The position numbers and the translations under genes were made by a program. Below are positions 28,843-32,258 of a DNA stretch of 64,000 nt, in pieces. Source of the DNA: Acetivibrio sp. MSJd-27 (GTDB lineage Bacteria > Bacillota > Clostridia > UMGS1840 > HGM11507). The notes under the pieces were generated by a model, which was not told the DNA's origin, searched no databases, and worked only from the letters and a program-made list of their open reading frames with translations. The stretch covers positions 1 through 64,000 of the forward strand of contig NZ_JAHLPV010000011.1 of the NCBI RefSeq assembly GCF_018918095.1. The letters run 5' to 3'. Each line of letters opens with the position of its first letter. Within the stretch, counting starts at the first letter, position 1.

Positions 28843-29031
28843 ATGGCTAAATGTGAAATCTGCGGAAAAGGTACTTGCTTCGGCATCCAGGTCAGCCACT
28901 CTCACAGAAGAAGTAACAGAACTTGGAAAGCAAATGTAAGAAAAGTGAAAGCTGTTGTAAACGGACAGGCGAAAAAAATAAATGTCTGCACAAAATGCTT
29001 GCGTTCCGACAAAGTGACCAGAGCAATATAG
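28843..29031 (+). CDS. rpmB: 50S ribosomal protein L28
   Basis: A 62-residue ribosomal protein: CEICGKG near the start, SHSHRRSNRTWKANVRKV in the middle, VCTKCLRS near the end. Two CxxC pairs mark the zinc-binding (C+) form, suggesting that a zinc-free paralogue may exist elsewhere. GGAGGTG lies 6 bases upstream of ATG. Single-gene unit with its own promoter and terminator. Confidence 0.97.
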   Translation: MAKCEICGKGTCFGIQVSHSHRRSNRTWKANVRKVKAVVNGQAKKINVCTKCLRSDKVTRAI

Positions 29032-29077
29032 CAAAAATGAAAAAACAAAAGATTTGAGTTCAATGGAAACAGCAAAG

Positions 29078-29110
29078 GCCTGATATCATATGATATCAGG
29101 CTTATTTTTT
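29078..29110 (+). terminator. Terminator of rpmB
   Basis: A perfect 24-base palindrome (GCCTGATATCA / TGATATCAGGC with 2 central bases; 29078-29101) followed by TTATTTTTT. Confidence 0.9.
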
Positions 29111-29140
29111 AGTCCTTTTCGAAACGTTAGGAGACGGTTT

Positions 29141-29290
29141 TTATGCTGTCTCTTCTTTCCGTTCCAGGCTCTTTTTTTCCATTTTCCAGATCTCTTCCTT
29201 ATAGGACAGAGGTTCCATACCTTTCATTCCGCGCAGCATATTCAGCAATTTAACGATCAGTCTGACCTGTTCCAGTTCTTTCCTTCTCAT
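29141..29290 (-). CDS. Small highly charged protein under a repressor-controlled promoter
   Basis: Forty-nine residues from ATG 29290, with GGGGAGGA 6 bases upstream. It has no membrane segment. Lysine, arginine and glutamate dominate, with a central KLLNMLRGMKGMEPLSYKEE that could form helices. No family recognised. Its promoter (TTGACA 29395-29400, 17 bases, TAAAAT 29372-29377) is overlapped by two operator palindromes shared with the divergent S24 repressor. It is probably the main target of that repressor and may be made on DNA damage. Confidence 0.65.
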   Translation of the reverse strand: MRRKELEQVRLIVKLLNMLRGMKGMEPLSYKEEIWKMEKKSLERKEETA

Positions 29291-29345
29291 GATATCCTCC
29301 CCTTGCTGAAAGGAATTCAGCATTTATTTTGAAATTGGTTTTCTC

Positions 29346-29443
29346 TTTGTTGATTATTAATCAACAAAGGTATTTTAACACTTCGTTGATTAATTGTCAA
29401 CACATTGCGAGATCTTGCGGAAATAAGTTGATTTTTAAGAAAC
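29346..29443. promoter_or_regulatory. Divergent operator region with GTTGA-N7-TCAAC sites
   Basis: Site 1 (29346-29368) has perfect 10-base arms TTTGTTGATT and AATCAACAAA. Site 2 (29385-29401) is GTTGA-N7-TCAAC. A weaker third site (29427-29443, GTTGA-N7-GAAAC) overlaps the -35 of the repressor gene. Sites 1 and 2 flank and overlap the promoter of the 49-codon gene. Same spacing in all three points to one dimeric repressor. Confidence 0.75.
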
Positions 29444-29456
29444 ACTATGTTATACT
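29428..29456 (+). promoter_or_regulatory. Promoter of the S24 repressor gene
   Basis: TTGATT (29428-29433), 17 bases, TATACT (29451-29456); its -35 lies in the weak third operator. Confidence 0.75.
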
Positions 29457-29517
29457 GATACCATAAGGATTTAACACTTATCCATAAGTATGCTACGTAT
29501 TAAAGGAGTGTCCGTTT

Positions 29518-30132
29518 ATGAACACATTGGGAGAAAAAATCAAAGAGAGACGGAGGGCTGCCGGGATTTCACAGGATTTTCTTGCAAAAAAGCTGGGATA
29601 CCGCTCCCGCTCTACCATCGCAAAAATAGAATCCGGCGAAAATGATGTTTCACAAGCAAAAATTCAGGCCTTTGCAGACGCACTCGATTGCTCTGCCGCT
29701 TATCTAATGGGACTGAATGAAAACCCTTCTGCAAACAACTCCGTGAAAATTCCTGTCCTGGGCAGGGTTGCAGCAGGTATCCCCCTTGAGGCAGTTCAGG
29801 ACATTCTTGACTTTGAGGAAATTTCATCCGAAACTGCCCGCAACGGAGAATATTTTGCACTTCAGATAAAGGGAAACAGCATGGAACCCAGAATCTGTGA
29901 GGGAGATGTGGTAATCGTGCGGCGCCAATCGGAGGTGGAAAGCGGAGAAATTGCCATTGTTCTGGTAAACGGAAACGATGCCGTCTGTAAAAAAGTTATG
30001 AAACACGGTTCCGGAATCAGTCTGGTTTCTTTGAATCCAGCCTATGAACCGATGTTTTTTACCAACGAAGAAATCAACTCTCTCCCGGTTACCATTCTGG
30101 GGCGAATGATGGAATTGCGGGGGAAATTTTAA
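29518..30132 (+). CDS. XRE-family repressor with S24 autocleavage domain (HdiR/LexA-like)
   Basis: A 204-residue protein. Residues 5-65 form a Cro/C1 helix-turn-helix (IKERRRAAGISQDFLAKKLG, STIAKIESGEND). The linker has the Ala-Gly scissile site VAAGIP. The S24 peptidase domain has the catalytic serine in KGNSMEPRI and the lysine in GNDAVCKKVMK. Such repressors cleave themselves on RecA filaments, as LexA and Lactococcus HdiR do. AAAGGAG lies 9 bases before ATG. No prophage genes are near, so this looks like a chromosomal damage-responsive regulator rather than a phage CI. It likely controls itself and the divergent 49-codon gene. Confidence 0.88.
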   Translation: MNTLGEKIKERRRAAGISQDFLAKKLGYRSRSTIAKIESGENDVSQAKIQAFADALDCSAAYLMGLNENPSANNSVKIPVLGRVAAGIPLEAVQDILDFEEISSETARNGEYFALQIKGNSMEPRICEGDVVIVRRQSEVESGEIAIVLVNGNDAVCKKVMKHGSGISLVSLNPAYEPMFFTNEEINSLPVTILGRMMELRGKF

Positions 30133-30190
30133 AAGGAAGGTTTGACACAAGCAAGACCGCAAAAAGTCTTCTGTCGGATGAGATATCAAA

Positions 30191-30229
30191 AAGACGCACA
30201 GCTGATTTTGGATCAGCTGTGCGTCTTTC
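30191..30229. terminator. Bidirectional terminator between the S24 repressor and the propeller operon
   Basis: AAGACGCACAGCTGAT pairs with ATCAGCTGTGCGTCTT (16 bp), with T-rich flank on the plus side and TTTGATATC on the minus side. Confidence 0.85.
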
Positions 30230-30236
30230 CTTTTGT

Positions 30237-32258
30237 TCAATTCACAAATGCCGGCATTTTCACACATGCCGAGTGCAGATGCTCCCGCTTTGGTACAAAG
30301 CGGCACAGTGTTGTATCATCGCTGAAATAGATATTGCCGTCGCCTCCCTTAGCCATCATGAAAGCATGCTGATCATAAATGCGGTAGGACTTTGTTCTCA
30401 AATCAATAACAGTCAGCTTCTCATTCAAATTGCAGTACAGAATATTTCCGTCAAAAACCAGACTTGCAGGTTTCCAGACCGTATTGGCTATATCCCAGTC
30501 ACTTCGTGAAATATTGATGTATTCCTCCGGATCCAGCGTATCCGGATTTAGTCGGAAAACGATCCCAGCACTTACTCCCCATAGATTTCCCTGTCCGTCA
30601 AAGCCCATTCCACCGATATGCATCAGACCGCCGGATTTAAAGTCGAATTGCAGAGTTCTTTCCAAAAGCAGTTTCTCCTTTTTCAGGTCATAAGCAAATA
30701 CTTTTGCATCGGTCTCGGTCGGATTGCTTCCAAGGCCTCCCCAAATGCCTGATGAACCGTAAATGATCCCATCCTGATAGCAAAGACTGGTGATACTCTG
30801 ATTTTTGATGATATGCCTCTTTACCCTTTTTTCCCCTGTACGGGGATTGTAAATGGTAAGGGCTCCGCCCAGTGTGCCGTAATCGGGCACTGTGCCCACA
30901 ACTAAAAGTCCGTCTGCCTCACACAGTGCAAACGGTCTGTCCTGCGCTTCTCCAATCCGGAAAATTGGTTTGGGATTTTCGTGTTCCGCAAAAGGCTTTT
31001 TCAAGTCCAGCTCCCAGATAACTGCCCGGGTGTAAATCCCCATATACACCTTGCCGTCAAAGGAAGTGATTCCCTCGGTTTGGCGGCAAATAAAGGGGTG
31101 AAAACTGTTTTCATGGCAGCGGTAAATTCCGCCCTTTGTCCCCATATATCCGCCGAATACAATATCCCCGTCGCAGGTGGAGGCCAGCGCTTTGATCTGG
31201 ATGGCGTCGCTGAATTCCTCCCCGATGCACACAAATTCCACGGTCTTGTTCTCAAAATTGATATAGCTGAGCGCATTGTGATCATAATTGCTTGTGATAT
31301 AGGTATATCCAGGATATTTTTCCTGATCCTCCAGCCAGAAAAAGCCGCCGCCCATCAGTCCGTTGGCATAGTCAAAGCCGTCGTCCCCTTCCGGAAGCTT
31401 GTGATAGGCGATTCCGGTGTTGAATACGTTCATTGTATCCAGTGTTATCCCCTTCAGCTCTCCGTCTGCTCCGACAAAATACACATTCCCTTCATGCTCC
31501 TGGCTGACATGCTGTCCGCCCAAGCTCTGCTCACATAGCTCCGTCCATGCTTCCCGCTCCAGGTCATAGCAGAGGATATAGTAAATACCCTCTGCCGTTT
31601 TCAGAACCGGAAACAGATAGTTTTCAATGCGGGTCATATAGTAAACCGCGTTGAGATTCACTTGCAGGAAAGATGGAAAACCAAGTTCCCGGCGTTCTCC
31701 ATTTTCCAGATTCAGGCACACCAGCTTAGGATTCTCCGAGCGGGTTCCCCCATATACCTTTCCCTTGTAATAGGCGGAGGAAATGCAATACATTTCCTCA
31801 CCCGTCAGACATCCGTAATCGGTAACCGAATGGTTCTTTTCCTGATAACGGAAAACCTTTCCGCCCGGATAGGTCCCGCCGTATACGCTTCCGTCTTCCC
31901 CGCAGGTTAAATGGTACACTGCTTCCTCGTCCAGCACGGAAGACACATTTTGAAGTTCTTTTGTTCCGCAGTCATAACGGAACAGCTGTGCAGGCGAGCC
32001 AAAGGTTCCGAAATACACGTTGCCGTCCTTATCCACCGTCTGCGTCCAGCAAGCCGCCGTATGATATTTGCTGTTATGCCTGATACTCCGGAAAGGCTTT
32101 TTCCGGTTGACATCGTACACAACAAACGTGCCGGGGCTGCCGGTGACGGAAAAGCACAAAGCGTCCTTTCCATCCTCTTTGCTCTTCACACAGTGCAGAA
32201 TAAAAGTATTTTGAAGCGGCTGTCCAAGCTTCTGGATTTCACCGTTTAAACTGTCCAT
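30237..32258 (-). CDS. Beta-propeller repeat protein without signal peptide
   Basis: A 673-residue protein made throughout of propeller-type blades: TVDKDGNVYFGTF, GEDGSVYGGTYPGGKVF, GKVYGGTRSENP, DGIIYGSSGIWGGLGS, GFDGQGNLWGVSAGIVF. No signal peptide or membrane segment is visible, so it should stay in the cytoplasm, unlike its two paralogues in this region. It shares the VPDYGT-x-GGA and IYNPRTG phrases with the 1421-residue protein. Last gene of the five-gene operon, 36 bases behind the stalk-domain propeller gene. GAGGATG precedes ATG. Ligand unknown; there are no enzyme motifs. Confidence 0.75.
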   Translation of the reverse strand: MDSLNGEIQKLGQPLQNTFILHCVKSKEDGKDALCFSVTGSPGTFVVYDVNRKKPFRSIRHNSKYHTAACWTQTVDKDGNVYFGTFGSPAQLFRYDCGTKELQNVSSVLDEEAVYHLTCGEDGSVYGGTYPGGKVFRYQEKNHSVTDYGCLTGEEMYCISSAYYKGKVYGGTRSENPKLVCLNLENGERRELGFPSFLQVNLNAVYYMTRIENYLFPVLKTAEGIYYILCYDLEREAWTELCEQSLGGQHVSQEHEGNVYFVGADGELKGITLDTMNVFNTGIAYHKLPEGDDGFDYANGLMGGGFFWLEDQEKYPGYTYITSNYDHNALSYINFENKTVEFVCIGEEFSDAIQIKALASTCDGDIVFGGYMGTKGGIYRCHENSFHPFICRQTEGITSFDGKVYMGIYTRAVIWELDLKKPFAEHENPKPIFRIGEAQDRPFALCEADGLLVVGTVPDYGTLGGALTIYNPRTGEKRVKRHIIKNQSITSLCYQDGIIYGSSGIWGGLGSNPTETDAKVFAYDLKKEKLLLERTLQFDFKSGGLMHIGGMGFDGQGNLWGVSAGIVFRLNPDTLDPEEYINISRSDWDIANTVWKPASLVFDGNILYCNLNEKLTVIDLRTKSYRIYDQHAFMMAKGGDGNIYFSDDTTLCRFVPKREHLHSACVKMPAFVN

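Follow-up and report, generated by a model that had tools for sequence, protein, structure and literature searches.

Positions 29141-30132 of the window (the whole 64,000-nucleotide stretch of Acetivibrio sp. MSJd-27 DNA analysed here) carry two divergent genes, one encoding a 204-residue XRE-S24 repressor and one of 49 codons, with operators between them. The sequence agreed with the initial annotation, which had described an XRE-S24 repressor facing a 49-codon gene across matched operators. The gene of the repressor, a CI/LexA-like protein, occupies 29518-30132 on the plus strand, and a terminator-like hairpin lies 3' of it at 30190-30228 (plus strand). The 49-codon gene, an orphan (MRRKELEQVRLIVKLLNMLRGMKGMEPLSYKEEIWKMEKKSLERKEETA), occupies 29141-29290 on the minus strand, with its ATG at 29290, its stop codon at 29141-29143, and a strong Shine-Dalgarno sequence, GGGGAGG, at 29296-29302 (minus strand). 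It converges with rpmB on a terminator hairpin at 29076-29103, which has a good T-run on the plus strand only. Pfam searches identified the neighbours as RapZ, MurB, flavodoxin, PHP, HprK, ribosomal L28, and large secreted SLH or copper-amine-oxidase-N proteins. This Pfam-identified set includes no phage gene, and for two flanking proteins Pfam gave no match; judged by its neighbours, this is a phage-type repressor outside a prophage. The unit sits in an ordinary bacterial chromosome; as a switch it belongs to a known type, its novelty being confined to the tiny gene, which the repressor almost certainly holds silent. The unit was not present in the DNA flanking hprK of relatives, where the hprK-side DNA was not syntenic.

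The repressor contains an HTH_3 domain (3.2e-13) and a Peptidase_S24 domain (4.8e-30) in Pfam, its AlphaFold (AF2) model has a pLDDT of 92, and its best PHROG match was a transcriptional repressor family (7e-42). In an alignment with 38 relatives, Ala86-Gly87 falls at the cleavage site and Ser121 and Lys158 at the catalytic dyad, so that the autocleavable S24 type assigned to the protein earlier holds at the level of residues. Judged from its sequence, it is a former phage-type (CI-type) switch protein whose residues for self-cleavage are intact. The possibility that it is LexA, the SOS master repressor, was rejected: the lexA model gave 88.9 bits against a cut-off of 110.95 and matched the C-terminal part alone, a true LexA is encoded elsewhere, and the operators differ. 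The canonical lexA, whose product has the LexA DNA-binding domain (PF01726), lies on contig C30 (4714-5987) divergent from a LysM (YneA-like) gene and with SOS boxes of its own. The intergenic region between these two genes contains boxes such as AAACATATGTTCG, which we take to be Firmicutes-type SOS boxes and which are unlike the operators of the window. Since this LexA and YneA-like gene are separate and have different boxes, the window unit is a second S24 circuit and not the SOS master circuit. The same genome also encodes a paralogue of the repressor (59% identity), located among terminase, portal, and replication genes in a prophage on contig C1 (265000-280895). The N-terminal DNA-binding parts of the two repressors differ, and immunity to the resident prophage is therefore not expected from the window repressor.

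The predicted promoter of the 49-codon gene (29372-29400, minus strand) consists of TTGACA (29400-29395), a 17-bp spacer, and TAAAAT (29377-29372). It matches 11 of the 12 consensus positions, has a TG, and ranks first among the sigma-70 matches in 28900-30300. The predicted repressor promoter (29428-29456, plus strand) consists of TTGATT (29428-29433), a 17-bp spacer, and TATACT (29451-29456). Three predicted operators lie on these promoters. O1 has the core GTTGATTATTAATCAAC (29349-29365) inside a 25-bp perfect palindrome, CTTTGTTGATTATTAATCAACAAAG (29345-29369), and covers the expected transcript start of the 49-codon gene, while O2 (GTTGATTAATTGTCAAC; 29385-29401) covers its -35. The degenerate O3 (GTTGATTTTTAAGAAAC; 29427-29443) has three mismatches and overlaps the repressor's own -35, as expected for autoregulation. 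The initial annotation had placed palindromes on the -35 and start region of the TTGACA-17-TAAAAT promoter and a degenerate third site on the -35 of the repressor, and all of these positions were borne out; its coordinates were exact for O2, and those given for O1 (29346-29368) need correction to 29345-29369. At the sequence level, then, the repressor would control itself and the divergent gene through shared predicted operators. In the leader of the 49-codon gene, O1 and a 7-bp palindrome directly before the Shine-Dalgarno sequence (29304-29322, minus strand) would form two hairpins in the mRNA, that of O1 being at the 5' end.

The genome scan for GTTGA-N7-TCAAC that had been proposed as a check was performed as a pattern search, like all our genome-wide operator scans. 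The 3.05-Mb genome contained the pattern three times, twice within this unit at a distance of 36 bp (chance ca. 7e-5), and two sites never arose in 20,000 dinucleotide shuffles of the intergenic sequence. When the O1 core was allowed to vary at up to three positions, seven matches appeared genome-wide, including three in this unit. The number of one-mismatch sites in the whole window was not above chance; the significance rests on the clustering and perfection of the sites and not on one-mismatch counts. We claim no wider regulon, because the other genomic matches require three mismatches or stand isolated (C4:21910). The exact O1 palindrome was absent from IMG/VR.

Many regulators of Clostridia and Negativicutes share the recognition helix of the repressor, STIAKIESGEND, and most of them lack an S24 domain. 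When the best GTTGAT...ATCAAC match in the 180 bp upstream was taken for each locus, 41 loci with the same helix outscored 46 loci carrying other HTHs (Mann-Whitney p = 2e-12, an optimistic value because the 41 loci, related genes included, fall into 11 clusters and the effective number is smaller). The same-helix loci also scored higher than their reversed sequences, and several of those that cluster alone (L049, L064, L110, L111, and L115) agreed with the GTTGAT...ATCAAC half-sites. These comparisons lend independent support to the view that the repressor reads the GTTGA-N7-TCAAC palindromes. Among the S24 relatives examined, about half face a Cro-like HTH gene, which is the standard phage layout; here the Cro position is taken by the 49-codon gene. 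The same-helix relatives with these half-sites include an orphan S24 repressor from a different genome, which has GTTGAATATAAATCAAC.

The 49-codon gene had a codon score of 0.49, exceeding the scores of the 195 spurious ORFs tested, partly owing to its Lys- and Glu-rich composition, and its G+C content was host-like. The product had been described as tiny, charged, free of a membrane segment, and unlike YneA. Consistent with this, the 49-residue protein is basic (net charge +4), lacks a transmembrane stretch (top 19-residue hydropathy mean, 0.57), and has no Pfam match, and the YneA-like protein of this genome is the separate partner of LexA on C30. It matched no family in Pfam, NCBIfam, PHROGs, or the PDB sequences. 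AF2 predicted from the single sequence a two-helix hairpin (helices 2-23 and 30-48; pLDDT 90), with which Foldseek retrieved nothing (best E, 4.2). No credible relatives were found in its own genome or family, in the genomes sampled from its class (391) and phylum (398), or in 50,697 phages, 72,556 plasmids, IMG/VR, and the ORFs of the fetched loci. PHROG 22182 (E, 0.25), a match at C1:271210 (E, 0.2), and two matches in the phylum, each within a longer open frame (516 and 270 residues), were all judged to be due to chance. The protein does not appear to be a Cro-like HTH protein, given the predicted two-helix hairpin and the absence of a family match, and its low hydropathy and the lack of a Pfam match do not fit a division inhibitor of the YneA/SosA type. 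Nothing in the sequence or predicted fold points specifically to the division or stress effector proposed earlier. Such an effector is one possibility, and a DicB-like modulator or an anti-repressor acting on the window or prophage repressor are others. We favour a small cytosolic partner-binding protein that either modulates the host as DicB does or acts as an anti-repressor. That it is an undescribed cytosolic effector or anti-repressor, released upon damage by a phage-derived S24 switch parallel to and independent of LexA, is a tentative proposal to which we give rather low odds. The gene is known from one genome, and its product could be dispensable.

Taken together, the repressor appears to be a co-opted phage CI-type repressor that forms a self-contained divergent switch over the 49-codon gene and is inactivated most likely by RecA-stimulated self-cleavage, a reading to which we assign a probability of roughly 60%. 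That the two genes form one circuit is well supported at the level of sequence by the operators, the promoters, the catalytic residues, the separate LexA, the coding quality of the small gene, and the lack of a recognisable phage gene nearby. We infer from these features the binding of the repressor, the order in which the sites are filled, and the RecA trigger. Dimers of the repressor on O1 and O2 would keep the strong 49-codon promoter off, and at higher levels of repressor the weak O3 would also be filled and limit its synthesis. Inactivation, most likely through self-cleavage at Ala86-Gly87 by Ser121 and Lys158 on RecA-DNA filaments, would release the 49-codon gene strongly, and from its freed promoter the repressor would be rebuilt and end the release. 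By analogy, the layout predicts repression through O1 and O2 and weak autorepression at O3; in lambda, a comparable layout provides repression plus weak autorepression. RecA filaments are the likely default trigger of a repressor with such S24 residues, a default to which IrvR is an exception. Induction of the 49-codon gene by DNA damage is likely.

Several other explanations bear on parts of this reading. The unit may be the relic immunity region of a lost prophage, in which the repressor was kept for immunity to related phages and the old rightward operon survives in its silent first gene, the 49-codon gene, which would have no host function. The CI ancestry of the repressor, seen in its PHROG match (7e-42), and the 59% identical repressor of a resident prophage agree with such an origin. 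However, no other phage gene was recognised nearby, the small gene has an intact promoter, Shine-Dalgarno sequence, operators, and host-like codon usage, and the DNA-binding parts of the two repressors differ; we therefore consider a relic unlikely. The regulated product may also be an RNA and not a peptide, formed by the 5'-end hairpin of O1 and the second hairpin before the Shine-Dalgarno sequence. The leader folds better than its shuffles (z = -2.4; 3/200), and a regulatory function of the irvA mRNA is documented (PMC7101444). However, both hairpins are short and one is the operator itself, whereas the ORF has a consensus Shine-Dalgarno sequence, a strong codon bias, and a confident two-helix prediction. 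Additionally, no Rfam family reached its gathering score over the region, and the sub-threshold matches lay mostly on operator and terminator palindromes. An RNA product is thus very improbable.

The signal, in turn, may be other than the SOS response, with constitutive self-cleavage and a repressor level set by synthesis as for IrvR, which would make the unit a general stress switch and not a DNA-damage switch. IrvR has an S24 domain, an A/G site, and a core-genome CI-like ancestry, yet it is RecA-independent; its authors, however, know of no other RecA-independent LexA-like regulator (PMC7101444). The S24 residues of the window repressor match those of prophage CI relatives, and we regard a non-SOS signal as somewhat less likely even than a prophage relic.

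Among known systems, the closest documented parallel to the co-opted switch is FddR of Francisella, a captured phage S24 repressor with a tiny regulon that controls its own gene and a divergent one whose function is unknown (PMC13148647). The FddR operator is GTG-N11-CAC, in contrast to GTTGA-N7-TCAAC, and canonical SOS genes are not induced in Francisella (PMC13148647), whereas the genome of Acetivibrio sp. MSJd-27 keeps LexA. HdiR of Lactococcus and Streptococcus is described as an autoregulated, self-cleaving S24 repressor that clusters with phage repressors, features that the window repressor probably shares; it controls umuC-type genes in bacteria without LexA (PMC8565304), whereas the present genome has LexA and the predicted target is the 49-codon orphan. 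IrvR-IrvA of Streptococcus mutans is a core-genome CI/Cro-like pair in which IrvR undergoes S24 self-cleavage (PMC7101444); it resembles the window unit in its CI-like S24 repressor and adjacent target gene, but IrvA is Cro-like and the partner in the window has no HTH. The LexA-YneA and LexA-SosA pairs likewise combine a self-cleaving repressor with an adjoining small damage-induced gene; in contrast, the 49-residue protein lacks both a membrane segment and LysM, the operators differ, and the genome holds its LexA/YneA-like pair separately. DicA has no S24 domain, and its phage context persists in Qin. In the DicA-DicB pair of this cryptic prophage, a phage repressor silences the gene for a small host-acting protein (PMC10448788), a likeness to the window unit, where a phage-type repressor faces a small-protein gene. 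The searches with the 49-residue protein showed no resemblance to DicB.

The unit would provide a clear Clostridia-type example of phage repressors captured as self-contained divergent stress switches, one that stands beside an intact LexA and not as its replacement, and its 49-residue product offers a concrete candidate for functional studies. The GTTGA-N7-TCAAC code of the STIAKIESGEND-type helix may be usable to assign operators to many uncharacterised regulators.

Two other arrangements were observed among the loci with this helix. In L115 (G231:C2, 9880-12454), the one S24 relative with the same HTH type and operator, which has no obvious prophage around it, faces a holin gene and a CHAP/CWB2 (CHAP-domain) lysin gene. 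Because its catalytic Ser is replaced by Cys and the Lys is aligned with Arg, the L115 repressor is probably not self-cleaving, and the locus, with its GTTGA-type operators, reads as a captured lysis cassette controlled by a repressor that probably cannot be cleaved. In L033-L063 (match ~4001), from many Clostridia MAGs, the same recognition helix is found on proteins of ca. 312 residues. The L033 protein combines this helix with an IspD/MobA-like nucleotidyltransferase domain, GTTGATTTATAATATAC overlaps the -10, and another nucleotidyltransferase gene is divergent; this regulator-enzyme fusion probably controls the adjoining gene.
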